Assembly (NCBI GenBank): GCA_950295325.1
Contig: OX485806.1
Location: forward strand, 47,549,169-47,613,168
Direction of reading: 5' to 3'
DNA from: Polytrichum commune
Lineage: Eukaryota; Streptophyta; Polytrichopsida; Polytrichales; Polytrichaceae
DNA: 64,000 nt
Shown here: positions 8,042 to 29,969 of the stretch, piece after piece
Position numbering within the stretch: the stretch's first letter is position 1
Layout: each line of letters starts with the position of its first letter
Program-made: the position numbers and the translations under genes
Notes under the pieces: model-generated
The model's input: the letters and a program-made list of their open reading frames with translations, nothing else
Databases searched by the model: none
Told to the model about the DNA's origin: nothing

Positions 8042-9626
8042 TGAACTTTATGTGGTGCAGTTGCAAACTTACTCATACAGCTCACAACAAAGCAAATATC
8101 GAAGTGGGTGTTGCAAGCATAGATTAGAGATCCACAAATTGATTTGAAGATATGAGTATTTGCTGGTTTATTTCTCACATTTGCTCTCATATTTGCGTTT
8201 GTACTCATAGGGTCTCTCAGTGCATTACAGTTATGCATTCCATAACTTTGGAGAAGGTTCTTGATGTATCTCCTTTGATGAATCCATATTCCATCTTTAT
8301 TGTAAACTAATTTTGTTCTGTTCTATTATGTTCTCTAAGGCTAAACATTCTTCTACTTTGTCCATCTCTTGATGATTATCCCCTACCAATATAAGGTCAT
8401 CAACATAGAGAAGATGCATTATGTATTTGCCATTGATGATCGAATAATATAGACTGGGATCAGCAGTGTTTTTAACAAGACCTAATTCTTCAACTAAGAA
8501 TGTATAAATCCTTGCAATCCAAGCTCTAGGAGTTTGTTTCAATCCGTAGAGAGCTCACTTAAGTCTAACCACTTTCCCTTCCATTCCTGGCTCTTTGAAA
8601 CCTTCTAGTATCTCCATATAGACCTCCTCTTCAAAATTTCCATTAAGAAATGTTGTCTTCACATCCAACTATTTCAATTTCCATCATTTATGAGTTGTTT
8701 ATGCTTATGTTGTCCTTATTGTACTCCACCTAACTACTGGGGAAAATGTCTCATAAGAGTCTTCACCAGGTACCTGCTCATAACCTTTGGCTACTAATTT
8801 TTCTTTCAGTTTCCTAACTTCTCCTGAGGCATCTTTTTTTTCCTTAAATATCCATTTTGTAGTGATGGTGCGTATTCCATCAGGAAGATCAACCGCCTCC
8901 CATGTTTGGTTCTTCTTTATTGACTCAATTTCTGATGCAATGGCCTCTTGCCATCCTTTCGATTGCATTGCTTCAACATAAGTTTGAGGTTCTCTATCAT
9001 GATCCATTTATGAAAACAAAACCATGTAATCACAAAGTCGCGACAATGGTTGTCGTTCTTTGTTTAGGTACGTTCTATGATGTCCTCCGTTTACATTTCA
9101 AATATTTTTTGGTTCATCATCTGTTTGTTGGTCCAATTCCTCTCGTACAACCTCCCTTTGTCTCGTCCTAATTACTGTAACTGGAATGTGAGCCTCTTCT
9201 GGAATTCCATTCTCTAGTCTCTTTTCCTTCTCTGCAACTGGAGGTAACTCGATCACATTTGGCTCCTCATTTTGATATTCTAATATTACGTCCATGAGCT
9301 GCTCCTGGAGTATATAACCACTTCTCTGTCTCCATTTTTAGTGATGATTGGTCCTCTCACAGTTATAATTTTTTCTTCGACAGGTAAGGGTTTCTTGAAG
9401 TGATTAAACCCTACTTTAGACTCATCAAATACTACAACCCTGCTAAGTTGAATTTTTCTTTCACTAGGTGTGTATATCCTATATACTTTGTTCACATCAT
9501 CATATCCCATAAATACTCCCATCGTTGTTTTGCTACTCAATCTCTGCCTTTTCTCTTGAGGTACATGCATTCAAAAATCTTAAGGTGACTTACATCAGGA
9601 ACTTTTTGGAGTTGGGACGACACTTG
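8042..9626 (-). pseudogene. Copia polyprotein: integrase C-terminus and reverse transcriptase
   Basis: Read on the minus strand from about 9622 downward. The integrase C-terminal part has VPDVSHLKIFEC and TTMGVFMGYDDVNKVYRIY, followed by an acidic linker (DVILEYQNEEPNVIELPP). The reverse transcriptase has AMQSKGWQEAIASEIESIKK, TWEAVDLPDG and KWIFKEKKDASG, the finger/palm block KLVAKGYEQVPGEDSYETFSPV, and the catalytic LLYVDDLILVGD at about 8400. The frame is broken by several stops and shifts. It joins the RNase H part across LTR-A. Upstream it is cut at 9626 by the 20 kb TIR transposon and resumes at 29966. Confidence 0.92.
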
Positions 9627-9675
9627 TATGTGAGCGTAGAGCGGAGAGCGGAGAGCGGAGATTTGGAGAGCGGAG
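9627..9675 (+). repeat. Left terminal inverted repeat of giant transposon
   Basis: TATGTGAGCGTAGAGCGGAG is followed by extra GAGCGGA units and TTGGAGAGCGG. The right end shows the same sequence reversed with fewer GAGCGGA units. The repeat number therefore differs between the two ends. Confidence 0.85.
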
Positions 9676-9703
9676 AGCGTAGAGGAAATAAAAATAATAA
9701 ACT

Positions 9704-12542
9704 TGTGAACCCTTTGAGTGGTCCACCACTCTGCGGGATCACTTTTAGTTAGAATGTTAGCATTAAAAGTTAGAATTGATAGGGAATTTAGGAAAAATTA
9801 GTTTATTTAGCATTTAGCCTAGAAGAAGGAAGGTCAAAATGAAACTAAGTAGTGCTAGAAGATAGCAAAGTAGAAAAAATGTGCTAGCTAGTAAAAACAA
9901 CTAGCTAAGCAAATATTAGTAGATGCTAGTTATTAAGCAAATGTTAGTAGATGCTAGCTAAGCAAGTGTTAGTTTATTAGTTAGTGTGAGGCACACAAGA
10001 CTATTGGAGGTGTTTTACGTAAGAAGATAAAATCGGCGTGAAGAATTTTGAAGAAAAAAAAGAAAGAGAGCAAGGGGGATACTTGCCCACTTGCCCCCTT
10101 GCCAACTCGATGGCGGAAAAATTAGAAAGATTTCTAAAGGTTTTTTGTCGGAGCCACCTCGGCGAGAGGGTGGCAACCTCAACCGGGAAAACCCCCGAGC
10201 CAAAATTTCGGGAAAGGGTTTGAAAAATGGATCCGGTGGAGGAGGGGTCCAACCCTTTTGTGAGAGGGTTTAAAAACCCCTCCTTCTACCTTGTAGCTCT
10301 CTCTCTTTCTCTAGTTTTTGGGCGAAGCCCTGCTTCAATGTAGTTAGGAAAACATCCTTTAGCATGTATTCTCAATGGTCTAAAAGAAAGGCTTGAGAAC
10401 CTCCTCTACTCTCTCTCTCCTAGTTAGGTTGTGTGTTTATTAACACACCAACAAAATTATTCCTTCTTTTGTAGAGGTAGGTTGGATGGTAGAGTTTTGA
10501 GTAGAGGCATTATAGACCTCATCTGCCAATGCCCTGAAGGCTTAGTTCAAAAGCTAGAACAAGATACTTATCATTTTTCTCTTAGAGAGATTTCATATAG
10601 CTATCCATAGCCGTTTCCCATTTGTGATTTGGTTGAGATGACAATTAGTTATGGATTTTCAAAGATGGAGTAGAAAAACTGGGTGGTCTTGTGGGTAGCG
10701 GCTGCTGGATCAGACCTGCGAGCCCAATAGGAATTTTAATTCCAAGAAATTATATTTTTCCCAAGTAGAACTGTTGTGTAGCTTTCCAAAATGGCTTAGA
10801 ACATTTGATTTGAGCATGATTTGAATTAGATATGAATTATGCAAGATGGGACACATAGTTTGAGAACTTTTGGTTGACTGCTGCATTACAGAGGACCTGC
10901 TGGGTTCACTTCGGCTTACCTTTCTAATCACATATTTTTATCAAATACATCTTTTTAATATCTCTCCAGGGTCATATAGAACTTTTGATTTGACGAAGAT
11001 TTGAATTAGATATGAATTGTTGAAGGCGAGATACATAGTTTAAGCCTTCTTGATTGACTGCTGTGTTACAAGGAGTCCGCTGAATTTCTATTAGCTTAAC
11101 CTGCTGATGTCATAATGTTTCTAGTTAGAGCTTGTTCATAGCTTTCCAATGGTATAAGGAAAGCCTAGATCCAAGTAGTAAGGAATGTGCTATGAATTTT
11201 TGAAGTTAGAAGGTAGATAGGTGGATTGGAAGGGTCGGTTGAATCGACCTCACACTTCCAACCCTCATAACTTTTGCATTTCTTATCCGATTAGAGTGAT
11301 TTTTAGATCATTGGAAAGATAATTTGGTGCACTAAGTATAAATATTATGCTTAGGATTAAATTACAGGGAAGAATAACACTTTATATTTTAATTGTTAAC
11401 TAAGGTACGCTTACTACCAAACTAGTTACAAAGAAGGAGGCAAGGTCGACGCTCGGAAAGTGGAGCAAGGAAGGAGGTAGCGGCTCGGCCTACATCAAGC
11501 CCAAATCAACCGAGGAAAATTGAGGTAAATTAACTAACCTTAAGCCTTCCATTTAGGATTGGAGGGAGCACGGCTAAGGTACGCATCTCTAAACCCACTC
11601 ACCTATCTCGTAAGGTCAAGTGGCTTGACCACTTGACCGCCAAGGGAGTACCCAATTCCATTGTTTTCGGGGCCCTTGGTATGTTTTGTGGTAGTAGCTT
11701 CATTTATTAGCAAGTTTCGTGTGTGGTAAGTCGGATTAATCACCGACACGACCACTCTGAATGTTGTTGGTGGAAAGGTGGGGTTAATGACCCGCGAATC
11801 CACTATTATGTTGTTGGCCCCATAGATTGGGAGTAATGGCCCCAATTTATGAAGATTGCGCAACAGGTTGAACCTACAGGTCGCCCGTCACCCTGGTCCC
11901 ATTGAGTTGCATTTCGTGGTCTATCCAGTGTAAACACATTTAACAATCAAAACATACAAAATAAATCGTAAACCCTTGTTGGCAAGAGACCCGAGGTAAG
12001 GGGTGATGCCTAATATATTAATGTAGTAAGTTAGGACGTGCAAACAAAAGTAAGTAATTAAGAAGGAATTTGTGTGAAGGGTGGGACTTAGGCCAAGTTC
12101 CCCCGCTTAGAAAACTAAATAGAACTAAATAAAGAAATAGGAAGAATTGAATGGTCCATCAAATTGTCGTTATTCCGTTCGTTGAGTTAGGGTGGTATGA
12201 GTCACACCCGGTTGGGTGTATCAGAACCATCCCAATTCACAAATTAGGATTGCCTTGGTTTCAAGGCTGGTGCGTCTGCGCGTAGAATAGGTTGTAGGTT
12301 AAGGTTAGAACTAGATATGAAATTGGTTAGTGGAGTTTAAAGCCACACTAGTAAAAAACTAAGGCCTAACCTCCGGAGGTACTACGACGCATATTTAATC
12401 TCCCTTAAAAATCTAACTACTCACGTTATACACCTATCATCCGGGTTCGGCTTGGGCGCCTGCAAATGCAGGCCACCTTCACCGAAGGGCTTGTGTGATA
12501 CTTTTAGGCTCCCTCGAAAGGGGGTGGTCCAAAAGTACCACA
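9704..12542 (+). mobile_element. Solo LTR, family D copy 1 (2,839 bp)
   Basis: The unit begins TGTGAACCC and ends GTACCACA. It is flanked by a perfect 5-bp target duplication AAACT (9699-9703, 12543-12547). It sits just inside the left end of the giant transposon, so it inserted after the transposon did, or travelled with it. A reversed second copy (47786-56538) aligns along its length, including the region with GGTGCGTCTGCGCGTAGA and the terminal GGGTTCGGCTTGGGC block. It has no gag or pol frame. Short frames inside (for example around 10000-10270 on both strands) are not supported as genes. Confidence 0.92.
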
Positions 12543-12547
12543 AAACT

Positions 12548-13004
12548 TGTCAGACTAAAATTCGGATATTTCAAAATAGCCAAGAATATACCAAGAATAG
12601 ACCAAGAATAGACCAAGAATATTCCAGAATCTGACAATAATAGTAAAAAAATTGGACCTATTTCCGTGGGATGTATAGGTCATAAAATAAAATAAAAACC
12701 CTGAATTTGAAATGGTCACATTAAGTTTGGAAACCGTGAGGTGGTTGAATTATTAAAACCAAGGATGACTACAAGAAAAAATCAATGAAAATGGATTTTT
12801 TGAGATTGGTATAATTGAAGAATGAGTCAATTAAAATACAAAGGAATCAAAATAATAAACTTGCTTGGTTTTTATTCATCACTTTTCTTTTTGTCTTATA
12901 TGTGAGTCTATTCTATAGCTTAGACTTTAGCAATTATCGTTTGTGGCCGAATAGATTATAAATTGGACTCATACCCAACATCATTATATATACAGTTGTA
13001 CACA
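12548..13004. other. Non-coding stretch inside giant transposon
   Basis: AT-rich sequence after LTR-D with a short repeated CCAAGAATA motif near 12580-12620 and no convincing coding frame. It probably contains the promoter of the small gene that follows. Confidence 0.5.
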
Positions 13005-13420
13005 ATGGGAGATGAGAGAGACATGTTTGCTGGATTAGGATGGGATAAGGAAATTAGAAGTCTAGCAGATCCTCATATTCCGGTTAATTCATCGCCGGAA
13101 TTTGAGTTTGCTGCTGGAAATCGAAGTAGTGATGACTACGAGCTGACTCCATTTTCGCAGTCTACACAAGCATGGAGGTGGAGGGTGCGGGAGGAGCAAA
13201 AAAATATGAGAAAAAAAAAAAAAAGCAGGAAGATGTGCCGGAGAAGGATGCTGATTTGGATGAAGACAAATCGAACGAAACGGAGGAGGAGGTGAAGGTG
13301 GAAGGGGAATCTTTGAAGTCTCTTTCATTTCGCGAACGGATGAGAGGAATGACGCCGCATCATCTTCCGCTGAAGGATCGAAAGAGAGATAAGACAGTTT
13401 CTTATATGGATTTGCTTTGA
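13005..13420 (+). pseudogene. Small charged protein of giant transposon, unidentified (frameshifted)
   Basis: The likely start is MGDERDMFAGLGWDKE. The first frame reads to about FSQSTQ, and a one-base shift near 13170 passes into a second frame. That frame is Lys/Glu-rich (KKYEKKKKKQEDVPEKDADL), continues with SLSFRERMRGMTPHHLPL, and ends DKTVSYMDLL at 13420. Total is about 138 residues. A run of 12 or more A residues lies near 13210 and could also cause slippage. I do not recognise the family. It is encoded on the strand opposite the transposase, about 210 bp from the transposase 3' end, in a convergent arrangement. Confidence 0.45.
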
Positions 13421-13632
13421 CCGGATCCACCTCCCTCGCAATTATCTAAGAAGTATGCAAAACGGAAATAGAGTTGATAGACATAGGAAGTATTGTAATA
13501 CAAAATTTTGAAGCAAATAAAAATAATCATTGAGATTATACCTTTATTATATCAATCAATTATTGCTTTGCAAGAGGTCCAGAAATGGATACGTATATCA
13601 TAGCCCAAAGTACTGCTAGGCTGAGATAAATC

Positions 13633-16600
13633 CTAAGAAGTAGACTTTATCAAAAGACCCCCTTCGAGGATGAGTTTGACTTCGTTGAAGCTAAATGTCG
13701 GGGCGTGAATGAACAAATCCACTTCCGCATCCAAATTAGAAACCTTGATGAAAATGTAATACAAATGCTTACAATTCAGATAAGAATTTCGTTTGCGGCT
13801 GAACTTGGAAATCATATTCAAGAAGTATGTGCAGTTGCACTCTGGAAGAGAACTGACTGTCACTTGGTAGATCGGTGGTTGGGGTTCTGATTTGGATTGC
13901 AGTGTGATAATGCAACCAAATCCCGGTTGAGGGATCATAGTTAACTTCAGAACGGTACCATGCATAGCTTCAGCAGAGGCCACCATCTGCCTCTGCTTTG
14001 CCGAAGGTGCGTTGCTGGATCGCCGAACAAGCTTGGACAATCTTGTCGGAGGGATCATGTCGGGGTTTTCTCGAACACGGATTCCAGACATATCCAGCGG
14101 GGGAGCAGAGTTGGTGAAGAGTTGAGTCGGTGTGATGCACTCCTTTGGTGGGAGTTGAAAACCTGTGTTCTCAAGGGCGAAGATCTCCGAGCGGGTGAGG
14201 TTGGTACCAATCTTCACGGGCCAGATTGGGGGAATAGGAGGCTTTTGGTCATCAGCAGAGAACTGCATGACCCATTTCCGACGAGGGCCCTTCATGCAAC
14301 GCTCAATGTCGTCTGGGCAAAAGACAAAGTCCGTGCGCTTCATAGATTGGAGTTTGTAATGATGCCACATACCGGTGTAGGTCGGCGCAGGGACGCTCTT
14401 ATTATTAGTGACGATTCTTGCGGTGCACTTTTTCTTCGTGCCCGCATGATTAGCCCAACAAGACTTCCCAGACGTATAGGGTATGCGGGCAATATGCCAA
14501 AGAGAGACATCTACTTTGGTTTCTTGCACGGCAGCGACACGCTGGAAACCAAGTCCTGCAGGTGAAGGCACTTGAACCTCTTGTACAGAGGGGGAAGACT
14601 CCTCAATGATAGTGGGTAGTGTTTCTGGTTGAGATCGAGTGACACGCTTACCGGGGGGAGGGCGAGAGAAGTTCACGGTATCGGGGCGGTGGGTCTCGCC
14701 ATCATCACCAATTGGAGTGTCTGGTCTTCGCTTCTGCGATCCAAACACCTCGGCGCCCTCAAGGTGTGGATCGCGAGTGCAAAATTCTTCCCCACCGGAC
14801 ATGTCAAGCAAGACCTTCTGCAACACTGTGGGGTCGCCAGTACGCTGAGCTCGACGTTGAGCACCCCTGAGCTTTAGTTCTTCTTTGCTTGGACCATCTC
14901 CGCCAATTCCACCTTTAAGGAACTGGTAGTATGCAACAACTTGTAAGAAGGCGCGAATGTAGTCGTCAACCGTAGCCACGTATAGATCTCCACCCTTGTT
15001 GCCGGAGGCTTGAAGCCACTTGTTGTGGACGGACTCCGCAAGATTGCACGACGGCATCTCGGCCAATTGGTCTTGGGTTAAAACCTTTTCCTGATTGGAG
15101 AAATCAAGTATTAATATAAATGTACAGAGAGAGGAAATCGAATCCAAGAAAAACCAATAATGAATTATAAAGGAGATGTACCAGTTCCATGAAACCACCC
15201 CATTGAAGGTAGCGGAAGTGCCAAAAAGCAAGCCAGAGCTGAAGATGCTTGAGACCGTCCTCACTTGTACAATTCGATGACGCCCACCAAGCCTTGATAG
15301 CTAGGTACCTAGTCTCAGCCTCTTCCATAGATGACGCATTTCGATATTGAAGGCAAAGATGTCTATGTTGGTCTTGTAATTCATGCTTTATATACGATTT
15401 CGTATGTTTTTCGAGCGATTGTTTCCAATGGAAAAAACAAGTGCGCTCACGACCCTCCATTGGAACTTTGGGATCCCCTGAACCATACACAATGCGAACA
15501 GCGTTCCAATTGGCTTGGGCACTGTCCGCCATGAAGCCTATAAAGTTTGGATGTGGAATACCGTGTCGGGCCATGACGTGGTTGAGGTTCTGCCAGAAGA
15601 GAACTTGGGCATCCTTATCCTCCGATTGGAAATCACAACATGAAATGGTCATGACCCGTTGATAAGTCCCATCGTACACATGAGCGGCCATGGTGGTCCA
15701 CCCTTTGACCCGCTTCACGTGATCGGACATCATCCACGCGTTCTCCAGGTCCCCACCCGGTTGCATCCGACGAACCAAATCCACTCCACTTCCAGGACCA
15801 ACCTCCGACATCTTAAAGACGAACACCTTGTCTGTATCGTCACCTTGTCATGGGAATTGGTTCCGTTGGACGTAGGCCCAATTGCTAACGCCTCGGAGCT
15901 TCGCGATGCCATCCATAACACCAAACCTCCGCAAATATTTGAAAGAGGTAACCTTAGAGCGAAGGTTTGGGGAATTCAACTCTCTACAGCTCTCAAAAAC
16001 AGGTTCAAGCTCTTTTAAAGAGAAGAGACGGTGTGTGTCATTATCGCCAGAAAGGAGAAACTCACCAACAATGTCCTTGCTAGCTTCAAGGACGATCTTG
16101 CTGTGGGTGGCTTGAGGCGTACGTTCAATGTGCTCCTCAAGAAGTGCATTGATACGCTTCCGACTGTCTCTGCAGTCTCCAACCTTCACTGGATGTTGAT
16201 GAGAACCGAGATGAATGCAGGCTCTTTGGGATGACTCCTTCCCATGGACGTAGAAGATTTTGGCCTCGCATAGTGCAATGCATTTGGGAGGCTCTTTACA
16301 AATCCTGCAGACAAGAGTAGATCCGGATGGCACAATGCCAGAGAGAGGGAAAGGATCTTTAGTGAAACCTTCAAATTCTGTGTCATTGACCTTAGAGGTA
16401 CGATGGGCGTGTTGAAGGTAATCACAAGTCGGGTTTTGGCATTGGAGATGGTCAACACATGTAGAGGAACGAAATGCAAGGCCAACGTCGTTTGTAATGT
16501 TGGTGGTTTGAGTCTTAGTCCAAACATGGCCATCATATTGCTTGTCCATGCCGTCCAACGACTTGGCCCTGGTTTTGAGATGAAGAGACTTCTGCTGCAG

Positions 16601-17306
16601 GGAGGACAAATAACTGGGTGCCATCGAAACGAGGGGGAAGGTGATTAACTTCTTGGATTTTGATTTTATCGTAATCTATTTTCTTGAGGACGTTCTTACT
16701 ACCGGGCATAGAGCCAAGACGACGAAGACATTGAACAATAGTTTGAGGAGGTTTAGATGTAGGGACCGAAGTAGTTGAAGGGACAGAGCTAGATGGAGAA
16801 GGCGTTATGTAGGATGCAAAGGGAAACAAATGAGGGGAATCATGGACAGCAACCTTATGCACTGGTACATCTTCACTCGAAGAATCAGACAAGTCTATAA
16901 CGTTGTCTACGCCAGGCTCGGTCTTGACGCTTATTATCGGGGGTGTGCTAAAGGCAACAGTGGATGATCGAAGAGGAGGAAGGATTTCTGTTGACACTCC
17001 CATCTGAGAATCTGGCCAGCCACAAACCCTATACTTTCCCGCGCCAAGCTCCCACACTACATTGCCATTGTCAGTTACCTTGGAGGTCTCATGGAAGGTA
17101 TGAACGAGCAATCCAGTATCAGGATGGTAGATCTCACGCTCTACCCATATTGTACTAGCTTTCAAAGAGAACCTAATGCTAAGATGAAGCTCCGAGACAA
17201 CAACAATACCTTGTGCACCAATGGGGAATATAATAGGGACCCCGATGCCATGTGAACGAAGTTCGGCCATCTCAGAGACGGGAGGAAGAATTGAGGTGGA
17301 AGCCAT
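13633..17306 (-). pseudogene. MULE-like DDE transposase with SWIM zinc finger (frameshifted)
   Basis: Read on the minus strand. The N-terminal region begins MASTSILPPVSEMAEL at 17306; an upstream Met at 17345 is possible. Next comes a Cys/His region with STCVDHLQCQNPTCDYLQ and LVCRICKEPPKC, reminiscent of WRKY-GCM1-type fingers. The catalytic part has HVYDGTYQRVMTISCC (first Asp), NFIGFMADSAQANWNAVR (second Asp), CFFHWKQSLEKH, and NLAESVHNKWLQASGNKGGD (Glu). These agree with the D-D-E layout and C...H motif of Mutator-like transposases. A 91-nt intron (15091-15181) separates the second Asp from the Glu. The C-terminus has PECNCTYF followed by YLNCKHLYYI, a CxC...CxH SWIM finger. Frameshifts lie near 16620 and 15845, so it is a decayed copy. 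It is the likely mobiliser of the 20 kb element. Confidence 0.8.
15091..15181 (-). other. Intron of the transposase gene
   Basis: On the minus strand the donor is GTACATCTCC and the acceptor ends CCAATCAG. The intron is 91 nt. Removing it joins GGFMELV to EKVLTQDQLAE in frame. Confidence 0.75.
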
Positions 17307-17345
17307 GAAGGCAGAGAAAGCAAACGTGAAGGAACAAAGATGCAA

Positions 17346-17625
17346 AGATGCATAGAGAAGGAGAATGGTGATGATGATGAAGTTATAAACAAATACGCAT
17401 GAATATTAGGAAGGAGACAAAACTATCAGGCATCCTAAAAAAAGATACCCCTAATTACAAAGATGGTTGTCAGATAGTAAAGCGCGCCTCCCATCGGGAG
17501 GTATTGCAATTATATATTGAAAAGAATGCGATTGCTCACTTTATTTCCAATGTGTGAGTTTGATGTGGTGAGGTTGTGGAAAGGAAATAGAACGAATAGG
17601 TCTGAATTGCGGGAGGGTTGAACAC
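17346..17625. promoter_or_regulatory. Divergent intergenic region, possible bidirectional promoter
   Basis: These 280 bp lie between the minus-strand transposase and the plus-strand RG-rich gene. The sequence is AT-rich with GGCGCGCT-like GC patches near 17480. It is inferred to hold both promoters from gene orientation alone. Confidence 0.35.
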
Positions 17626-18624
17626 ATGAAGGAAATAGGCAATTCACAACCTCCGACAACGGAACCATCTAAGAAAAAGAAGAGGAGGCGATCGTCTACA
17701 CATTACACTGATAAGAAGAGAAAGACAGTGAGGACACAAAAGTCACAGGCAAGGAAAGCGCCAATCGAGGGCCGTGGGATGCCCGAGGATTTGAGCCAAA
17801 GCATAAAGGACCTGCGGAACCTTCGTGGAGGCTAGACTGTGGGATTCGGCCTTTTCATTTATCACCGATTGTAGAAGAGGCGGACGGAAGTAAAGCGCAA
17901 CCAATGGCAGAAGTGGAGGAGTTGGGAAACGACATCATCCAAGAGGACTCACGCGAAGAGACAAACTCTACAAGTGTCGTACGTATTCTTCGGGTTCTCC
18001 ATATATTCAGTTGTTTGAGCACATAATAAAAATGGTAGAACATATTCAACTGTGAAACAACTTTTCTTTTAGATATTATGGTTTGTCATCATTGTTATAA
18101 ACATTGTTTTATCTTAAATATAGGAAGAAGGGGGGAGTGGAGATAGTGGAAATATCTACGAAAAGGACAACAAGGAGGTAGCACAACAAATTGAGAAGGC
18201 GTTAGAAGAGCGAGAACCGATGTCGGGACAACCAACGATTCAAGCTAGAGAAAAAATGAAGGCGTCCAAGAGGAAAGCGGCAAAGGAAGATCTGAAATCA
18301 ACTTTGTTGGGAGGCCGCGAAAGAGCTGAAGGAGGAGACCCATGCGCAGAAACCCTAAGTGTGGATGTTGTGACCCCTGCTTCAAGATTTCAGCGAAGCA
18401 AGGCGGGCGGAACACAACAAACATCAAGGCGAGGGCGTGGCCGCGGGAGAGGAATGGCGCAAGTAAACCTCGGAGATTCGAGAAGCACTCCAATAACGCC
18501 GACAGAGGACGGGACCTCGGAAGATAGTGGCGCCAATATAGGGGCTTCAGTGGAGGGCATACTCCAAATTCTGGTAAGGTGTCGGGATCTCGGCCAAGCT
18601 ATGTTCGCCAACGTTTTTGCTTAA
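17626..18624 (+). pseudogene. Charged, RG-rich protein of giant transposon, unidentified
   Basis: The first exon begins MKEIGNSQPPTTEPSKKKKR, a nuclear-localisation-like basic region, and reads to a stop at 17835. An acidic segment (VEEADGSKAQPMAEVEELG) continues in another frame to a donor GTACGTATTC near 17979. After an acceptor near 18122 the frame EEGGSGDSGNIYEKDNKEV reads on to 18624. It passes through a methylation-type RG box (SRRGRGRGRGMAQ) and a Ser/Thr-rich tail. It is divergent from the transposase, about 320 bp away, so the two may share a bidirectional promoter. There is no recognised domain. An accessory role such as the helper proteins of large MULEs is only a guess. Confidence 0.5.
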
Positions 18625-18714
18625 TTTCTATCACCTTGATTTCTCATAGTATTTGGAATATCAGCTTGACTTGCTTTCGGCCTTGTCCTGATTTGGGTTT
18701 AGGAACATGTCAGG

Positions 18715-21400
18715 AAAGGTATGTTTGTGCTTGAAGAATCAAAATGTTATGTGCACATCAATTGCTCTCGGCCTTGGCTCATTTTGTGTAGTGCACAAGA
18801 ACGAGCTAGGGGAAGAGGCCTCGGATCCGAGGCCTCATATTTGTGTAAGTTTGAGTATGTGAAAGGTAGGGTTTTGAGAGAGGCGAGGTTCTTGATTTCT
18901 CAAACAAATGGAATGTCGACTTTCTTGCTTTCTTGATTCCTTGCTCTCGGCCATTTCTTCTATTGTGTAGTGCATAAGTGGGAGCCATAGGAAGAGGCCT
19001 CGGATCCGAGGCCTCTTATTTGTGGGTAGGTTTGTGCTTGAAAAATCAAAATGTTATGTGCACATCAATTGCTCTTGGCCTTGGCTCGTTTTGTGTAGTG
19101 CACAAGAACGAGCTAGGGCAAGAGGCCTCATATTTGTGTAAGTTTGAGTATGTGAAAGGTAGGGTTTTGAAAGAGGTGAGGTTCTTGATTTCTCAACCTA
19201 ATGGAATGTCAACTTTCTTGCTTTCTTGATGCCTTGCTCTCGGCCGTTTCTTCTATTGTGTAGTGCATAAGTGGGAGCCATAGGAAGAGGCCTCGGATCC
19301 GAGGCCTTTTATTTGTGGGTAGGTTTGTCCTTGAAAAATCAAAATGTTATGTGCACATCTATTGCTCTCGGCCTTGTCTTGTTTTGTGTAGTGCATAAGA
19401 AAGAGCTAGGGGAAGAGGCCTCGGATCCGAGGCCTCATATTTGTGTAAGTTTGAATATGTGAGAGGTAGGGTTTTGAAAGAGGTGAGGTTCTTGATTTCT
19501 CAAACTAATGGAATGTCAACTTTCTTGCTTTCTTGATTCATTGCTCTCGGCCATTTCTTCTATTGTGTAGTGCATAAGTGGGAGCCATAGGAAGAGGCCT
19601 CGGATCCGAGGCCTCTTATTTGTGGGTAGGTTTGTGCTTGAAAAATCAAAATGTTATGTGCACATCAATTGCTCTCGGCCTTGTCTCGTTTTGTGTAGTG
19701 CACAAGAACGAGCTAGGGGAAGAGGCCTCGGATCCGAGGCCTCATATTTGTGTAAGTTTGAGTATGTGAAAGGTAGGGTTTTGAGAGAGGCGAGGTTCTT
19801 GATTTCTCAAACAAATGGAATGTCGACTTTCTTGCTTTCTTGATTCCTTGCTCTCGGCCATTTCTTCTATTGTGTAGTGCATAAGTGGGAGCCATAGGAA
19901 GAGGCCTCGGATCCGAGGCCTCTTATTTGTGGGTAGGTTTGTGCTTGAAAAATCAAAATGTTATGTGCACATCAATTGCTCTTGGCCTTGGCTCGTTTTG
20001 TGTAGTGCACAAGAACGAGCTAGGGCAAGAGGCCTCGGATCCGAGGCCTCATATTTGTGTAAGTTTGAGTATGTGAAAGGTAGGGTTTTGAGAGAGGCGA
20101 GGTTCTTGATTTCTCAACCTAATGGAATGTCAACTTTCTTGCTTTCTTGATTCCTTGCTCTCGGCCGTTTCTTCTATTGTGTAGTGCATAAGTGGGAGCC
20201 ATAGGAAGAGGCCTCGGATCCGAGGCCTTTTATTTGTGGGTAGGTTTGTCCTTGAAAAATCAAAATGTTATGTGCACATCTATTGCTCTCGGCCTTGTCT
20301 TGTTTTGTGTAGTGCATAAGAAAGAGCTAGGGGAAGAGGCCTCGGATCCGAGGCCTCATATTTGTGTAAGTTTGAATATGTGAGAGGTAGGGTTTTGAAA
20401 GAGGTGAGGTTCTTGATTTCTCAAACTAATGGAATGTCAACTTTCTTGCTTTCTTGATTCATTGCTCTCGGCCATTTCTTCTATTGTGTAGTGCATAAGT
20501 GGGAGCCATAGGAAGAGGCCTCGGATCCGAGGCCTCTTATTTGTGGGTAGGTTTGTGCTTGAAAAATCAAAATGTTATGTGTACATCAATTGCTCTCGGC
20601 CTTGGCTCGTTTTGTGTAGTGCACAAGAACGAGCTAGGGGAAGAGGCCTCGGATCCGAGGCCTCATATTTGTGTAAGTTTGAGTATGTGAAAGGTAGGGT
20701 TTTGAGAGAGGCGAGGTTCTTGATTTCTCAAACTAATGGAATGTCGACTTTCTTGCTTTCTTGATTTCTTGCTCTCGGCCATTTCTTCTATTGTGTAGTG
20801 CATAAGTGGGAGCCATAGGAAGAGGCCTCGGATCCGAGGCCTCTTATTTGTGGGTAGGTTTGTGCTTGAAAAATCAAAATGTTATGTCCACATCGATTGC
20901 TCTCGGCCTTGTCTCGTTTTGTATAGTGCATAAGAAGGAGCTCGGGGAAGAGGCCTCGGATCCGAGGCCTCTTATTTGTGTAAGTTTGAGTATGTGAGAG
21001 GTAGGGTTTTGAGAGAGGCGAGGTTCTTGATTTCTCAAACTAATGGAATGTCAACTTTCTTGCTTTCTTGATTTCTTGCTCTCGGCCATTTCTTCTATTG
21101 TGTAGTGCATAAGTGGGAGCCATAGGAAGAGGCCTCGGATCCGAGGCCTCTTATTTGTGGGTAGGTTTGTGCTTGAAAAATCAAAATGTTATGTGCACAT
21201 CAATTGCTCTCGGCCTTGTCTTGTTTTGTGTAGTGCATAAGAAAGAGCTAGGGAAAGAGGCCTCGGATCCGAGGCCTCATATTTGTGTAAGTTTGAGTAT
21301 GTGAGAGGTAGGGTTTTGAGAGAGGTGAGGTTCTTGATTTCTCAAACTAATGGAATGTCAACTTTCTTCCATTTTTGATTCCTTGCTCTCTGCCTTGTGC
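18715..21400. repeat. Palindrome array 1: 307-bp higher-order repeats
   Basis: About 16 copies of a 22-bp perfect palindrome (arm GAGGCCTCGGA followed by its reverse complement) lie at alternating spacings of about 128 and 179 bp. This makes a 307-bp higher-order unit repeated about eight times. For example one copy is at 18994-19015, and equivalent landmarks recur at 19271, 19578, 19885, 20192, 20499, 20806 and 21113. Between palindromes, each half-unit carries TTGCTCTCGGCC and GTGTAGTGCA(T/C)AAG blocks. One palindrome near 19120 is half deleted. Short frames repeated every 307 bp are artefacts of the array. Confidence 0.95.
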
Positions 21401-21422
21401 CCCACGGGTGAACGCCCGTGGG
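21401..21422. repeat. CCCACGGG-type inverted repeat 1
   Basis: Arms CCCACGGG and CCCGTGGG surround TGAACG. It is followed by CCATGTAACAAGTAACTTGG, a flank shared with copies at 23725 and 24119. It lies at the junction of palindrome arrays 1 and 2. Confidence 0.85.
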
Positions 21423-21479
21423 CCATGTAACAAGTAACTTGGTTAGGCATGTCTTTATGAGACACTTTGGTTGGTTCTG

Positions 21480-22800
21480 AGTATGTAAACTAGTTTGTGT
21501 GTGAGGCCTCGGATCCGAGGCCTCTCGGTCGAGGCCACTTGAGGTTTTTTGATTCAAAGTATAACTTGTATGAATGAGGCACTTTGCTTGTTTTTGAGGA
21601 TGTGAACTAGTTTGTGAATGAGGCCTCGGATCCGAGGCCTCTTTTATGTGTTCCAAAACAAGTGTACGGAATAGGCACTTTGGTTTGTTTTGAGTATGTA
21701 AACTAGTTTGTGAATGAGGCCTTGGATCCGAGGCCTCTTTTATGTGTTCCAAAACAAGTGTACGGAATAGGCACTTTGGTTTGTTTTGAGTATGTAAACT
21801 AGTTTGTGAATGAGGCCTCGGATCCGAGGCCTCTTTTATGTGTTCCCAAACAAGTGTACGGATGAGACACTTTGGTTTGTTTTGAGTATGTAAACTAGTT
21901 TGTGAATGAGGCCTCGGATCCGAGGCCTCTTTTATGTGTTCCAAAACAAGTGTACAAATGAGGCACTTTGGTTTGTTTTGAGTATGAAAACTAGTTTGTG
22001 AATGAGGCCTCGGATCCGAGGCCTCTTTTATGTGTTCCAAAACAAGTGTACGGAAGAGGCACTTTGGTTTGTTTTGAGTATGTAAACTAGTTTGTGAATG
22101 AGGCCTTGGATCCGAGGCCTCTTTTATGTGTTCCAAAACAAGTGTACGGAATAGGCACTTTGGTTTGTTTTGAGTATGTAAACTAGTTTGTGAATGAGGC
22201 CTCGGATCCGAGGCCTCTTTTATGTGTTCCAAAACAAGTGTACGGATGAGACACTTTGGTTTGTTTTGAGTATGTAAACTAGTTTGTGAATGAGGCCTCG
22301 GATCCGAGGCCTCTTTTATGTGTTCCAAAACATGTGTACGGATGAGGCACTTTGGTTTGTTTTGAGGATGTAAACTAGTTTGTGAATGAGGCCTCGGATC
22401 CGAGGCCTCTTTTATGTGTTCCAAAACAAGTGTACGGATGAGACACTTTGGTTTGTTTTGAGTATGTAAACTAGTTTGTGAATGAGGCCTCGGATCCGAG
22501 GCCTCTTTTATGTGTTCCAAAACATGTGTACGGATGAGGCACTTTGGTTTGTTTTGAGGATGTAAACTAGTTTGTGAATGAGGCCTCGGATCCGAGGCCT
22601 CTTTTATGTGTTCCAAAACAAGTGTACAAATGAGGCACTTTGGTTTGTTTTGAGTATGAAAACTAGTTTGTGAATGAGGCCTCGGATCCGAGGCCTCTTT
22701 TATGTGTTCCAAAACAAGTGTACGGATGAGGCACTTTGGTTTGTTTTGAGTATGTAAACTAGTTTGTGAATGAGGCCTCGGATCCGAGGCCTCCTTTTAG
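21480..22800. repeat. Palindrome array 2: 96-bp units
   Basis: Fourteen copies of the same 22-bp palindrome (some with CCTTGGATCC in place of CCTCGGATCC) lie about 95-96 bp apart (117 bp for the first spacing). Between them are TTTTATGTGTTCCAAAACAA and a TTGTTTTGAGTATGTAAACT block. Spacer bases vary at a few sites. Because the unit is a multiple of three, a 456-codon frame stays open on the minus strand (21342-22712) with a 32-residue repeat beginning EASDPRPHSQTSLHTQNK. I treat this as a by-product of the repeat unless expression is shown. Confidence 0.95.
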
Positions 22801-23005
22801 TGCCCTCGATCAGCAGTCCCCAGGGAATGGCTCCGGGGACTGCGAATGTTTAAACAGGCATAACTTCCTTGAATTTTGCCCAAATGGAGCAAGTGAGGTG
22901 TCCATCGGCATCTGCATTTCACGTAGATGACGATAGAGTGGTTGATTGTTAGATTCGGAGACAACACGTGGAAGATATGGAGGTCTGAAGCTGCCGGGTG
23001 GGGGA
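22800..23005 (+). repeat. LTR-A-related module, copy 1, inside palindrome array
   Basis: It contains CAGTCCCCAGGGAATGGCTC, AAACAGGCATAACTTCCTTG, GTGTCCATCGGCATCTGCAT, GTAGATGACGATAGAGTGG and GAGGTCTGAAGCTGC. The same blocks, in the same order, are found in family A LTRs (for example reversed at about 2060-2230). It therefore derives from, or was donated to, LTR-A. Confidence 0.75.
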
Positions 23006-23274
23006 AATGTGTTTTGTTAAGTGCATATGTAGGAGCTAGGAGAAGAGGCCTCGGATCCGAGGCCTCTTTTATGTGTTCCAAAACTAGTGTACGGATGAGG
23101 CACTATGGTTGGTTTGGAGTACGTAAATTACTTTGTGTGTGAGCCCTCGGATCCGAGGCCTCTCAGTCGAGGCCACTTGAGATTTTTTGATTCAACGTAT
23201 AGCTTGTATGAATGAGGCACTTTGCTTGTTTTTGAGTATGTACACTAGTTTCAAAATGAGGCCTCCTTTTAGTG

Positions 23275-23475
23275 CCCTCGATCAGCAGTCCCCTGGGAGT
23301 GGCTCCCGGGACTGCGAATGTTTAAACAGGCATAACTTCCTTGATTTTTGCCCAAATGGAGCAAGTGAGGTGTCCATCGGCATCTACATTTTACGTAGAT
23401 GACGATAGAGTGGTTGATTGTTAGATTCGGAGACCACACGTGGAAGATATGGAGGTCTGAAGCTGCAGGGGGGGG
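23275..23475 (+). repeat. LTR-A-related module, copy 2
   Basis: Nearly identical to the module at 22800-23005, with GATCAGCAGTCCCCTGGGAG and the same CATAACTTCC and GTCTGAAGCTGC blocks. The two lie 475 bp apart with a palindrome-bearing spacer, consistent with a segmental duplication. Confidence 0.75.
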
Positions 23476-23724
23476 ATTGTATTTTGTTAAGTGCATATGT
23501 AGGAGCTTTGGGAAGAGGCCTCGGATCCGAGGCCTTTTTTTTTGTGTCAAGGTTTGTGCTTGAAAAATGAAAATGTTAGGTTCATTTTTGAATTCTCTCG
23601 GCCATTTTCTGTAGTATGTATTTCATAAGGAGGGGCATTCGGAAGAGGCCTCGGATCCGAGGCCTCATTTTTGTGTCAAGGTATGTGCATGAAAAGTTAG
23701 GTTTTAACATGATCAAATGTGTGC

Positions 23725-23746
23725 CCCACGGGTGAACACCCGTGGG
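23725..23746. repeat. CCCACGGG-type inverted repeat 2 (perfect)
   Basis: Arms CCCACGGGTG and CACCCGTGGG with an AA spacer. It is followed by CCATGTAACAGGTAACTTGG. Confidence 0.85.
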
Positions 23747-24118
23747 CCATGTAACAGGTAACTTGGGTAGGATTTAGCATCATCACGGGGAGATGTCTCC
23801 ATGTCAAATATTTTTAAAAATTATGATTTTTTTTCTCTATATTCACAACCATTGATTATATCTTTTGGTTATTTTTTTGGAATTTTTTGTCATCTTCATT
23901 TTTCCTAGTAATTGTTTTAGTTGAATTCTACGTCATTCTAGGTAGAAATGGTATGTTTTCTAGAAAAATATGATCATCAAATTTGGTCATGATATTTTAC
24001 TCCGTAATAGATATCATATATATCTACCTTCCAGAAAAATTTGAGAAAAATTTGACCCATTTTGGTGATGCAACTTGGCAATGGAGTGACCTCCCCTGGA
24101 ACATCATCAAATGTGAAC

Positions 24119-24140
24119 CTCACGGGTGAACACCCGTGAG
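24119..24140. repeat. CTCACGGG-type inverted repeat 3 (compensatory change)
   Basis: Arms CTCACGGGTG and CACCCGTGAG with an AA spacer. Relative to copy 2, both arms changed at paired positions, so pairing is preserved. It is followed by CCATGTAACAAGTAAATTGG. Confidence 0.85.
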
Positions 24141-25026
24141 CCATGTAACAAGTAAATTGGTTAGGTTTTAAAATCATCAAGGAGGGGCATTTGGAAGAGG
24201 CCTCGGATCTGAGGCCTCATTTTTTAGTCAGGTTGTGTGCTTGAAAAAAGAAAATGTTAGGTTCATTTTTGAATTCTTTCGGCCATTTTATGTAGTATGT
24301 ATTTCATAAGGAGGGGCATTCGGAAGAGGTCTCGGATCCGAGGCCTTATTTTTGTGTCAAGGTATGTGCATGAAAAGTTAAAATGTTATGCTCATTTTTG
24401 AATGCGCTTGGCCCTATTGTTTTGGGTAGTGCATAAGTAGGTATTTTGTGAAGAGGCCTTGGATCCGAGGCCTCATTTTTGTGTCAAGGTATGTGCTTGA
24501 AAAATGAAAATCTTATGTTCATTTTCGAATGCTCTCGGCCTTCTTGTTTTGGGTAGTGAATAAGTATGTGTTTTGGGAAGAGGCCTCGGATCCGAGGCCT
24601 CATGTTTGTGTGAATTTTATGCTATAAAAATCAAAATGTTATGTTCGTGTAAGATTGCTCTCGGCCTTCTTGTTTTGGGTACTACATGAGTAAGAGGTTT
24701 GTGAAGAGGCCTCGGATCCGAGGCCTCATTTTGGAGACAATGTATGGGCTTTAATAGTCAAACTGCTATGTTCACATAAGATTTCTCTCGGCCTTTTTCT
24801 TTTGGGTAGTGCATAAGGAAGAGGTAGGAAAAGAGGCCTCGGATCCGAGGCCTCTCATTCGTAGGTAGGTTAGTGCTAGAGTTGACCACTTGACTTAGCA
24901 TTCGGCCATTTCCATTTGTAGTTTGCTCTCGGCCTTGTATTGTTTTTGTGAGGATTTGTTTCTTTATAGTTACGAAGTTATTGACTTTTCTTTGTGAAAT
25001 TCTCATTTTCTCCATGTTCTTAGGAT

Positions 25027-28000
25027 ATGGACTCTTCACAGGTTGCGCAATCGCAATCCCAATATGGAGAGGATGTTGTTCTTGCGGCCCCCGCGGTTGA
25101 AGTTGAAGCTGTGCAGGTTGAGAGTCTCAATTCGCAGGGCCCATTACAAGTAGAGGTGAGTTGGATAGTTGTTGAGTAATTTGTTGAGCAAGTTTTTTGA
25201 GTTCTAGCTTTCTAAGCATGGTTTTACTATTTGTGTTTTTGTTAGGCTCTCGCAATGAACGAAGATGCCGTTCAAGCAGTTGCCGACACGGATCCCGTGG
25301 TGTGTGAGTTTGAGCTTCGGAAATCACAAAAGGAGGACTCCATTGGTGTTATCCAACGCCTTCGGATTAAGCCAACCTATAAGTCCCGCTTATCCATTCC
25401 TTTGTGCCGCTTGAGAGCCCTCCCTCTCGTCCGTCCTATAAGTGAGGTTGAGGTGCAGCGCTTGGAATGTGAATTTGTAATGGGATACCGAGAGGGTGAT
25501 CGAGCTCTTTACGTGTCTGCTTTCAACGACGTTCCCGTGGACCTCCCCATTCCCCCTGGCATTATGGCCTCTTGGAGCCCTCTCTGGCAAGAGGCCTCCG
25601 CAGAATTTGACGCCAAGCTCAAGGAGGATCCGGATCGTGCACATTTCGCCGGGAAGATGTTCTTCGTCTGGGAAGGCAATCATCGTCTCACCGCTTGGTG
25701 GAGACACATCAATAACCACCACGCCGATGACAAGAGTTGGCATATCTCGGTGGATTGCATTGTTGTTGATCCTAGAGGATACACCGGTGTATTTCTCAAT
25801 GCCATGAGCGACATTAATTGGTAAGCTCACTCATTTTTTTCATTCATTTTTCATTTTTGTTTTAATTCTTTTCCATTCTTTTCACCTCACGTTCCTCACA
25901 TATTTTCTCTCAGGTCAACCGAGCATGATTATGTCAAGGCAAACATTCCGGCCAAGCTCCTTTGAATCCGCACTTTTGGAAGGTTAGAGTTGTCCACCTT
26001 TAAGGATCTCATATCGCCATCTGACTACAAAGCATGCGAGAAGATAAAGGAGAGTCGTCCAACTTGGTACACCTTGACCGCGGATGTGTTCGTTAAGTTT
26101 CTTTACAAGGTATGGTTTGTGCGTTCAATCATTTAGAGCTTCTAACATAGATAATTTCTATGCCGATTATATGAACTCACAAGATCATTTCTTGCAGAGA
26201 GACATTTCGGCTCAAGCAGACCTTGCAGTGAGGCATTACCGTGAGACCACACCCGTTGCGGAGAGGTCGGCCACTGAGATTTGGATTGTTATGACCAAGG
26301 CCCAGGAGAGGACAATCAAAAATATTCGGGCCCGTTCTTTTGAGAAGTACATATCCGTTGCACACCTTGACAATGGAGAGGATTTCTTTCATGAGGTACT
26401 CTTTTGAACTCAAATCACTCTTGAACGCAATTCATCCAAATCACTCTTCAACTCTATTACTCTTTTGAACTCAAATCATTTTTATTTTGTGCACAGATTG
26501 ACCGCCATTTTAATGAGTTCTTTTCGACGGACATGACAATTGAAAAATTGCAAAAAATTGTCACATGCCCGGTCGAAGCTTCGTTCAAAGCTAAGTGGCT
26601 TTACTGGTGGAACGCCCCCCTTCGTGAAAGGTTAGATAACAAGTTCCCCGTCGACAAGCCTATGAGGGAGAGGACTTTGGACGACTGGCTACACAAGGCG
26701 TCCTTATGGGCTCAGGTAAATCCATTCCTCGGCTTTCTTCATTTTCATTTTCCTCTATTCCATTTATCTCATATCTAATCATCGCCCTCTCTGCAGTTGG
26801 AGAAGGAAGTCGCGGTTGAAATTGAGACCTTAGAGGAGAGCCTCTCCGTCGACATTGATTGGGATGCATCAGAAACTATCTTGCGCCCTCGTGAGTACGT
26901 TGATCATTGGCGGATTGTCCTTTGGGACAAGGCCTTCAAGCCTTACCTCGGCGATAAGCCTGACATCGCCTTTGCCAAAGGTGATAATCTCTTGGAGTTC
27001 GAGGAGGGGGCTCTCGCTATCAAGCGTGTGGCCTATCGGTAATACATCTATCCTCCACTTTGCACCTCTCCTTAATTTCATTTCTTGCTCGTTTTCTTGG
27101 TTTTCTTACATTCTTGTTTTGTCATGTAGGTATATCATGAGAGAATTGGTTGTGAAGAATGCATTGGCCTCATCTTCCTTGCTGGACTACCTCTCGGACT
27201 GGGTGAATATTTTTTCTAGCCTCTGCGTGTACACGACCGCGCAAACAAACAAGTTCTCCGAATTGCACTTGCAAGGTGGTGGATGGTACTTGAATTGTGC
27301 TGCAGGATTTGTCCCCGGGGAAGAGAAGGCTTTGTTTGCTAGCCTTGTGGGTAGTGCTCCGGATGATAACATTGTTACCTTGGAGGAGCCTGACATCGTT
27401 GAGCTTCCCCCTCCTCCTTCTAAGGCACCAAGGAGAAAGGGAAGGCCGCTCTTTTGGATACCAGTGCCACCTCTTCGGATGCCCCTAACACGCTTTCTCT
27501 CATCGAAAATGTGGACATGGTTCAACTAATGTTGGATTCCGAGGTTGCCGGAGGTCCCCTCCCCGCATATACCCGCATTCAAGAATTCATTGCCAAGGTT
27601 TGTATACTTGCCTTCGTCAATTCTCAATTTTTTTTCCTTTGCTTTGCTTATTTCTTTCCTTCTTGTTTTCTCATGAAGTTTCAATTGCAGGTTGGGGCAA
27701 GTCGTTCCCGTGTGAACACCTCAACTACAACTCACAAGGGCCTCGATTTGCTCTTCGCCGACATTCCCGAGAATTTGCCGGTGCCGAACATCTCCACCGA
27801 TGTTCCTGCTTAGAACAAGCTCCATGAATCATACTATGAGTGTATTTTTGCATTTGCAAAATCTAACCTCTATGATCATGGTGTCCTTGTTCTTGCCCAT
27901 TGTGCGAGTGCCAGTGTTTCTAGGAGTATTTTCGATTGGGCACACACTTATGACTTCTACGTCGCGGAAGATTGGTTTGGAATGAATGATTTGGACCTCC

Positions 28001-28989
28001 AATCTCCCGTTGTTCCCTCTGGAGTGGTAAGCAAGTCTCCCTCTCTTCCCCTTCCGTATTGCTTATCATTTCAATTCCATTTCATTTCAATTCAATTTCA
28101 TTTTCATTGTTGCAGACTCGGAAGTTCAGCATCAAAGTTCTTGTTCGTGTTAACTCCGTTCTTAGAGTGCGGGAGGAGGCCATACAAGAGTATGGTTACA
28201 ACCTCCAACGAGATGGATGGTTGAATACCTTCATCGATGAGAACAGCCAGGCGATGCGCAGTAATGGGGTACCTTGGCGAGGTGCCCATGAGAAACATCC
28301 TATTTTTTTTTCCATCCTTCTCGCTACTCTCACCGACAAGAATGATGTTATTATGGACTGGCAGTGTGGTGTAGGTACGCCTTGTTTTTCAACTTCATCT
28401 TTACTTTGAATTTTCCATTATTTTTCCTTGACTAATTTCCATACTAACATTTTACCTCTCGTTGCTTTAGGTGGTTCGATTACAGCATGTCGCTCCCTTG
28501 AGCGGCATATTGTGGCCCTTGAGAGTGACCCCGTCATTTTCAATTCACTCCTACTCCCCATGCGCGATCCCCAGCCTGCGCGTATATCTCGCTCAGTTAC
28601 CGCACCGTCTACATCTATCTTTGATCCTCCTCAAAAGATGACCAAGAGGGCATTCGGATTCTTTTGTGCGTAAGTTTGCTTTCTATATTTTGCCATGTTT
28701 GCCTTGATTTCAAATTCTCATTTTCTAGTGTCATCATGTTTCTAATCCTTTTGCTTGGGTGTTTAGAGAGCCAGCGGAGGTCGCAGTCATTCGTCGAGAC
28801 ATGTTTTCAAGTCCTCCGAAGCCGTTTGAGCTTCCCCCGTATGTTAGTGCAATGGCGGATTGTTTTGCGAAGGCGGAGTCCCCATCTCCTCCTCGCGTTC
28901 GTCATTTCTCGCGTGGGACACGAAATCTTTTCTTGTTAGAAGCAAATGAGGGTGAGGAGAGTGATAGGGAATGTTCTCCAAGCCCTTAG
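25027..28989 (+). pseudogene. ParB-like / N4-N6 DNA methyltransferase-like gene, 11 exons
   Basis: Exons that I can join by GT-AG borders: 25027-25155, 25246-25820, 25914-26109, 26198-26395, 26497-26715, 26797-27038, 27130-27597, 27691-28026, 28116-28374, 28471-28669, 28767-28989. The N-terminus is MDSSQVAQSQSQYGEDVVLA. A ParB-like core is in exon 2 (KMFFVWEGNHRLTAWW). Exon 8 has GLDLLFADIPENL, placed like methyltransferase motif IV (usually DPPY), and DHGVLVLAHCAS like the next strand. Exons 9-10 have NDVIMDWQCGVGGSITACRS followed by HIVALESDP, which fits motif I (D..xGxG...E.D). The order IV then I fits the beta class. Breaks: TGA at 25963, frameshift near 27430, TAG at 27813. DIPE in place of DPPY suggests a binding rather than catalytic protein. 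Confidence 0.72.
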
Positions 28990-29044
28990 TTTATCATTTT
29001 GGTTTTGGAGATTATAACTCCGTTTGTTGTTGTTATCCGGCTTT

Positions 29045-29050
29045 AATAAA
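29045..29050 (+). terminator. Poly(A) signal after the ParB/methyltransferase gene
   Basis: AATAAA in CTTTAATAAAAGTTGTG, 56 bp after the stop codon at 28987-28989, followed by TTGGTTTT-rich sequence. Confidence 0.55.
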
Positions 29051-29099
29051 AGTTGTGTGTTGGTTTTATTTTTGATATCCGGCTCAAGTTTCATTCTTT

Positions 29100-29929
29100 C
29101 TCTCCATTATTTCATATTCATAATGTCAATCCGCATTGCATTCTTTATTTTTTCTTCATCGTTCGGATCTCTTAACTTCTAGTCACAAAACAATCTAGCT
29201 CTCAGCTCTTAGTGTGAGATCTTAGTTATAGGGGGACCATACTTTCTATTAGTGTGGATGGTTTATTTTATGGTTGTGCACACTAATCACATTGGCCGTC
29301 TTCCAATTCCAATTGCTATATAGCAATTGGAAGTTTTGTTTGGCACGCGAACATAACCTCGTCAAACTTTTTAAATTGAACTTCATGTTGTTCTCAAAGA
29401 GCCGGCACGTCACCTCAAAAATTTCCAAGAGGATTCTAAGGTTGGACTTGGGGGATTTGTCTTTGAGGTCTTTGGCTAAGCTAAGGACTGAATTGGAAGG
29501 CTGTTATGGTGCGACGGAATTTTATTGCATGTTCTTTGGATCATTTTACCCATATTGGACATGCCCGGCAGATAGGGTGTAGATGGCCCTAAACTAGAGT
29601 ATATAGCTATTTTAACTAATTACCCATTTTTGTAAGTCTTGAGGTTGGCTACATTTTGTTAACCAATAAAATATTTTGTGTATGGTATTTTGATTTCAAT
29701 TTGGTGACGTCAGCCTTAATTTAATATTATACATTTGAAAACATATACTATAAGATGTTTGATAACAAATGCAATCTTCCACGCCTATAGGATCCATTGG
29801 TTTCTCAAACAATTCTGGGTTATTATGTCCACGGGAATGGGGGTACCTTTCCAAATATAGAATTCAAACTATCTCTAATTCCACGGAAATAGGCACTGCT
29901 TCTCCTAAAATTACCCAACAAAATCTAAA
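29100..29929. other. Non-coding right arm of giant transposon
   Basis: AT-rich, without a supported gene. It includes a 26-bp palindrome at 29307-29332 and leads into the right terminal inverted repeat. Confidence 0.5.
29307..29332. repeat. 26-bp perfect palindrome
   Basis: Arm TTCCAATTGCTAT is followed directly by its reverse complement. A partial CTTCCAATT copy precedes it, so it may be the tip of a small foldback element. Confidence 0.8.
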
Positions 29930-29965
29930 TTTTCCGCTCTCCAATCTCCGCTCTACGCTCACATA
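29930..29965 (-). repeat. Right terminal inverted repeat of giant transposon
   Basis: Read on the minus strand it is TATGTGAGCGTAGAGCGGAG, then ATTGGAGAGCGG. It matches the left end except for the missing GAGCGGA duplications. Copia sequence starts immediately after 29965. Confidence 0.85.
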
Positions 29966-29969
29966 CTTG

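Follow-up and report, generated by a model that had tools for sequence, protein, structure and literature searches.

The locus examined here, in the moss Polytrichum commune, raises the question of whether a transposase gene, an array of palindromes and a gene for an accessory protein with a ParB-like and a methyltransferase-like part, all lying between inverted ends, belong to one mobile element, and of what such a protein could do for it. The window, i.e. the whole stretch analysed, is 64,000 nucleotides long (assembly GCA_950295325.1, contig OX485806.1, positions 47,549,169 to 47,613,168 of the forward strand) and all positions below are those of the window unless a contig is named. In the reading that we favour, at a probability of roughly 55%, the ParB-fold and methyltransferase-fold protein loads on the palindromes of its own element and keeps the element DNA open and expressed, or ready to transpose, against plant silencing.

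The element with its genes is a single mobile element. The inverted ends described at both borders in the sequence-only reading, which had been made without database searches, are exact 20-mers at 9,627-9,646 (forward strand) and 29,946-29,965 (reverse strand), found in 0 of 100 shuffles, and in the window copy they pair over 39 nt at 90%. In the genome searched (408 Mb, 64 contigs) 141 exact 20-mer ends are observed. Among the first 100 of them, neighbours less than 30 kb apart form 19 inward pairs, with a median spacing of 18.0 kb, and no outward or same-direction pairs; there are many single ends too, as the 19 pairs account for 38 ends and the remaining 62 have no exact inward partner within 30 kb. 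Nine (E1-E9) of the 18 inward pairs besides the window's own were fetched, and eight short stretches at ends were inspected, four of which are the ends of E1 and E2. The check proposed for one mobile unit is thus borne out, given that the ends recur in pairs facing inward around a common gene set, with 10-bp duplications in seven of ten copies. Between copies the transposase region is 97.7-99.75% identical, with E8 at ~93-94% (alignment without E2 and E6), and the family is young on account of the former identities.

Comparison of the flanks between copies moved the borders outward. A CTTG had been taken for the outer flank on both sides, but the conserved ends extend 12 bp further at each border, with GGACGACACTTG on the left and a CTTGAGTTTCCC-like sequence on the right, hence the CTTG lies inside the element. 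The left end, GGACGACACTTG and then the inverted repeat TATGTGAGCGTAGAGCGGAG, occupies 9,615-9,646 on the forward strand, and the right end, the inverted repeat and then CTTGAGTTTCAT (in most copies CTTGAGTTTCCC), 29,946-29,977 on the reverse strand, so that the whole transposon, with ends conserved in ten copies, spans 9,615-29,977 (20,363 bp). Beyond the extended ends the flanks differ from copy to copy among the ten compared. The 10-bp target-site duplications are identical in E1, E2, E4, E5 and E7 and agree at nine of ten positions in E9 and in the window copy, where TTTGGAGTTG at 9,605-9,614 is paired with TCTGGAGTTG at 29,978-29,987; no 10-bp duplication is seen at the other three of the ten copies (E3, E6 and E8). 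The observation that a Copia integrase frame stops at one border and resumes at the other held in so far as the two flanks are consecutive parts of one integrase, but the Copia copy in question has decayed: it contains stops and changes frame at the junction.

The transposase, 1193 amino acids long, is encoded on the reverse strand by exon 1 (15,182-17,306) and exon 2 (13,633-15,090). Its frame is open in five of eight aligned copies (E1, E3, E4, E7 and E9) and broken in E5, E8 and the window copy, which carries one frameshift and one TGA in exon 1. Residues 300-860 retrieved 62 relatives, and neither the transposase nor its relatives matched a Pfam transposase family in a Pfam profile search. 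A SWIM-like CxC...CxH pattern was read by eye at the exon 2 end of the window family's transposase, and one relative (P0059) exceeds the Pfam SWIM cut-off, at 22.8 vs 19.6 bits. A structure model built for a relative with 33% identity has low confidence (mean predicted local distance difference test, pLDDT, 54.3); its best Foldseek matches are three chains of ISCth4 (E 0.003-0.008, none below E 0.001, with low TM-scores), which however is bacterial and which we take to be of the IS256 family. IS256 is the bacterial kin of the Mutator-like elements (MULEs). Considering the SWIM match, the ISCth4 structural matches and the 10-bp duplication together, a MULE is therefore indicated, with reference to the features given in the available portion of PMC6446971, where MULE target duplications measure 8-11 bp. 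The MULE traits present are the 10-bp target duplication, terminal inverted repeats and, in the relative, a SWIM zinc finger. The elements form a family of DNA transposons, ~15-29 kb long, that most likely falls in the MULE superfamily. Copy E6 (L020-L022) is a mosaic, with one transposase ~72% identical to that of E4 and part of a second, which is 99.5% identical over 426 amino acids.

The accessory gene had been described with 11 exons, and ten is the best reading, all on the forward strand. Exon 1 (25,255-25,820), supported by a structure model, encodes the putative ParB/sulfiredoxin-fold domain and is followed by exons 2 (25,914-26,109), 3 (26,198-26,395), 4 (26,497-26,715) and 5 (26,797-27,038) and by a Ser/Pro-rich linker in exon 6 (27,130-27,597). 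The methyltransferase-like part comprises exon 7 (27,691-28,026), exon 8 (28,116-28,374, motif X and the start of motif I) and exon 9 (28,471-28,669, the rest of the motif I region), and exon 10 (28,767-28,989) ends with the stop. The window gene is broken by a TGA in exon 2, a deletion of ~0.2 kb in exon 6 and a TAG in exon 7; copy E4 has an open frame of 1041 amino acids, with one splice donor reading AT. At least 263 accessory exon matches were found in the genome and 14 places were fetched; alignment A3 consists of E4 and seven of these, the other seven, broken or partial, being excluded. Copy E3 (L014-L015) has ~1 kb inserted in exon 7. Some 95 kb upstream and in the opposite direction, a second copy (G000:C4:47464053-47466263) agrees with the window copy in both methyltransferase exon scores and in the TAG, and is likely a local duplication.

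The earlier call of a ParB-like domain is supported by the confident model of the exon 1 domain, whose predicted structure matches the ParB/sulfiredoxin fold. Among the 31 entries listed by the structural aligner, 29 are ParB, KorB, Noc, PadC, SbnI, SerK or sulfiredoxin and two are uncharacterised. The Box-II arginine (GNHR) is invariant in the 34 rows of alignment A1 and altered in the broken copies E1 and E7. On the profile side, no ParB family was found for exon 1 in Pfam, NCBIfam, PHROGs or PDB profiles and no Pfam family for the accessory protein; single members of the exon 1 family match DUF1015 (E 0.04) and DUF6551 (E 0.24), neither significantly, and both families are named in the available part of a paper on the ParB fold (PMC12704722). 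Exons 2-4 gave no meaningful match to PDB profiles (best E 1.1) and a helix-turn-helix was not found there. As a single query the 1041-amino-acid protein had no relatives in the sequence search, probably because the database proteins are predicted without introns, and exon 1 alone had 139 relatives at E ≤ 1. Two short peptide patterns, which reach close relatives only, gave 32 matches in IMG/VR and 87 in GTDB, among which no relative of exon 1 was confirmed.

For the other half, beta-class methylases match weakly but consistently over motifs X to I, with the S-adenosylmethionine (AdoMet) site, which bears out the methyltransferase-like call, but not an ordinary methylase. In the beta class motif IV reads [DNS]PP[YFW]. 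At its position, in exon 7 (DIPE in the window copy), six of the eight copies of A3 have D[IV]PE, L038 has NVPE and L034 DIPK; since this departs from the motif IV pattern, the protein is not classed as an active methylase, and judging from sequence the change to D[IV]PE speaks against ordinary methylation of DNA. The methyltransferase exons are under constraint.

Between the two genes lies, at 18,815-24,854, an array of ~40 copies of the palindrome GAGGCCTCGGATCCGAGGCCTC in units of 96, 127/128 and 307 bp. The sequence-only reading had given about 40; 31 exact palindromes are observed in the window, and 41 matches at up to five mismatches, including a partial one that overlaps another. The array sits between the transposase and accessory genes in all ten copies, with 7 to 41 exact palindromes per copy, and genome-wide there are 1903 exact palindromes against 0 for the reversed control. 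An expanded array is seen in copy E2 (L011-L013, 27.9 kb), where 41 palindromes are exact and 132 lie within three mismatches. An open reading frame for a peptide repeat running through the 96-bp array was rejected, as three does not divide the unit lengths of 127, 128, 139 and 307.

The DNA upstream of six accessory-gene copies was inspected and a palindrome is found in five. C3 (L048) has a variant of the window's type A, and a second type, B (ACCCTCTCGG-NN-CCGAGAGGGT), is found at C2 (L046), C4 (L047), C2b (L050) and C1 (L051, two sites, one mismatch); L049, upstream of another copy, has neither exon 1 nor the palindrome core and was dropped. The two types share CTCGG-NN-CCGAG and differ symmetrically in both arms, and type B counts 1441 sites genome-wide on two strands (control 0). 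Methylation of GATC at the palindrome centre was set aside, type B being without GATC. In five arrays conservation is 0.947-0.983 within the palindrome vs 0.62-0.85 in the flanks, and the consensus flanks of different arrays are no closer than shuffles in nine of ten comparisons (17 to 162 of 200 shuffles reach the likeness); in the tenth, W128 vs L047, one of 200 does. Hence the palindrome is under constraint and switches from subfamily to subfamily. In the VANDAL MULEs of Arabidopsis, tandem arrays of a short noncoding motif that differs between subfamilies are described (PMC10398659, available part), and the array motif here is likewise subfamily-specific and in noncoding DNA. Type-B palindromes are also observed inside the accessory gene after exon 4 (an array in L046, single sites in L050 and L051) and downstream of a gene copy (L056), a stretch in which no element end was found but further type-B sites were. 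In two type-B copies the terminal motif of the family recurs at the right end, with 27/32 and 29/32 matches (best of 100 shuffles, 19 and 21).

The palindrome types were then set beside the two halves of the protein. Over exons 1-4, type-A E4 and C3 are 82% identical and the type-B copies 80-88%, vs 63-66% between A and B (C4, for which exons 1-4 were not recovered, was excluded). In the methyltransferase part, type-B C2 and C1 are 84-89% identical to E4 and C3, and C2b and C4 are 93% identical to each other and 61-69% to E4, C3, C2 and C1. Because the halves group the copies differently, the gene is a mosaic and the palindrome type travels with the N-terminal half, which fits binding of the palindrome by that half. 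Weighing against this, the array physically adjoins the N-terminal half and the data may reflect a single recombination.

The data show element structure, gene content, fold match, the constraint on methyltransferase exons and palindrome and the switching of the latter, and a mechanism can be proposed on them. Transposase and accessory protein are encoded divergently with the array between them; the accessory protein would most likely use its N-terminal half to bind the 22-bp palindromes as a dimer and would, as ParB does at parS, load on and around the array under nucleoside triphosphate (NTP) gating. Dimeric recognition of the ParB type, NTP gating and spreading are suggested by the protein families. 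The purpose would most likely be to keep the element DNA open, expressed or ready to transpose despite plant silencing, by analogy with VANC (PMC10398659) and VirB (PMC10653881), both as described in the parts available; a VANDAL-like function of the accessory system is a reasonable analogy. The methyltransferase-like part is probably a DNA-contacting or AdoMet-sensing module and not an ordinary methylase. A wider proposal, which we consider less likely than not, is a eukaryotic ParB/parS-type system, in which an NTP-gated clamp derived from a phage-like ParB-methyltransferase fusion would load on self-specific palindrome arrays, spread and exclude silencing, clamp and palindrome diverging together by subfamily.

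Three other explanations were considered. It is unlikely, but the best surviving of them, that the palindromes serve the transposase as recruitment, internal synapsis or enhancer sites, the ParB-fold protein being a co-factor of transposition, a role that accessory proteins can have in large MULEs. The array between both genes in ten copies and the transposase pieces beyond the array in L046, L047 and L048 are consistent with this; however, the sites within and downstream of the accessory gene lie away from the ends on which a transposase works, and the palindrome type follows the accessory N-terminal half. Somewhat less probable is a promoter-proximal operator through which the protein does no more than regulate its own expression and that of the divergent transposase, without anti-silencing: ~40 sites over 6 kb, and the 132 of E2, exceed the usual operator, even though the array lies between divergent genes and, in L050 and the window, stops 140 to 400 bases short of exon 1 on its upstream side. 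Satellite-like repeats that have no protein partner and are maintained by gene conversion or by hairpin-driven tandem expansion are improbable, for although tandem units do expand in several periods, the flanks of the units show no relationship from array to array where the core of the palindrome is retained, and the differences between the types are symmetrical in the two arms.

The favoured reading, a protein loading on its own element's palindromes, has partial counterparts in known systems. As in the VANDAL elements with VANC, a large MULE carries an accessory protein, but in the moss protein a predicted ParB fold is combined with a methyltransferase-like domain, the motif is palindromic and 22 bp long, and an anti-silencing role is proposed by analogy. 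With bacterial ParB/parS and the paralogues Noc, KorB and VirB it shares the ParB/sulfiredoxin fold, a Box-II-like arginine and palindromic sites near the gene; VirB counters H-NS silencing and requires cytidine triphosphate (PMC10653881, available part). Unlike these, the moss system resides in a eukaryotic transposon, has dozens of sites in tandem arrays and gave no helix-turn-helix in the PDB profile search of exons 2-4. Phage proteins in which a ParB fold is fused to an N6_N4-type methyltransferase domain (PMC12704722, available part) display the same two-domain pairing, but the moss motif IV is not DPPY, and the two-pattern GTDB and IMG/VR scans gave no exon 1 relative. In the main text of that paper, as far as available, the words plant, moss and transpos are absent. 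A literature search outside subscription journals and preprints found no report of a ParB-type or methyltransferase protein on a eukaryotic transposon. The element is most likely a MULE with a putative self-recognition cargo, and a categorically new mechanism may be involved.

Three small open reading frames on the forward strand complete the element: one rich in lysine and glutamate (13,136-13,420; 55-96% matches in eight of nine other copies), a charged one forming part 1 of a second small gene region (17,715-18,026), and a charged one with RGRGRGRG (18,124-18,624; 78-97% matches in all nine other copies, in two pieces in E7). Near the left end of the window copy lies a nested 2.84-kb TG...CA insertion (9,706-12,542) with AAACTTG on either side, absent from E4 and E5 and perhaps a non-coding element of the long terminal repeat type. 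No Rfam match at gathering scores was found anywhere in the window. Elsewhere in the genome, 14 light-harvesting gene matches of equal score form a cluster of ~94 kb (G000:C5:1751760-1846160). For one member of this gene family the best single-domain matches in solved structures are 8htu and 7xqp, both from Physcomitrium (the top-ranked entry, 9vfj, is a longer protein of several domains), which points to a land plant and probably a moss as host.

ParB-type clamps act in bacterial partition, and one of them, VirB, relieves silencing on a bacterial plasmid. If the favoured reading is true, the presence of such a clamp in a young family of plant transposons would mean that self-recognition by transposons has been invented a second time, independently of VANC. 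The protein half and its palindrome make a testable pair with natural variants for specificity studies, and the protein is, on sequence grounds, a candidate plant protein for binding a defined 22-bp site. Taken together, this plant transposon seems to have a new means of recognising its own DNA and controlling it.

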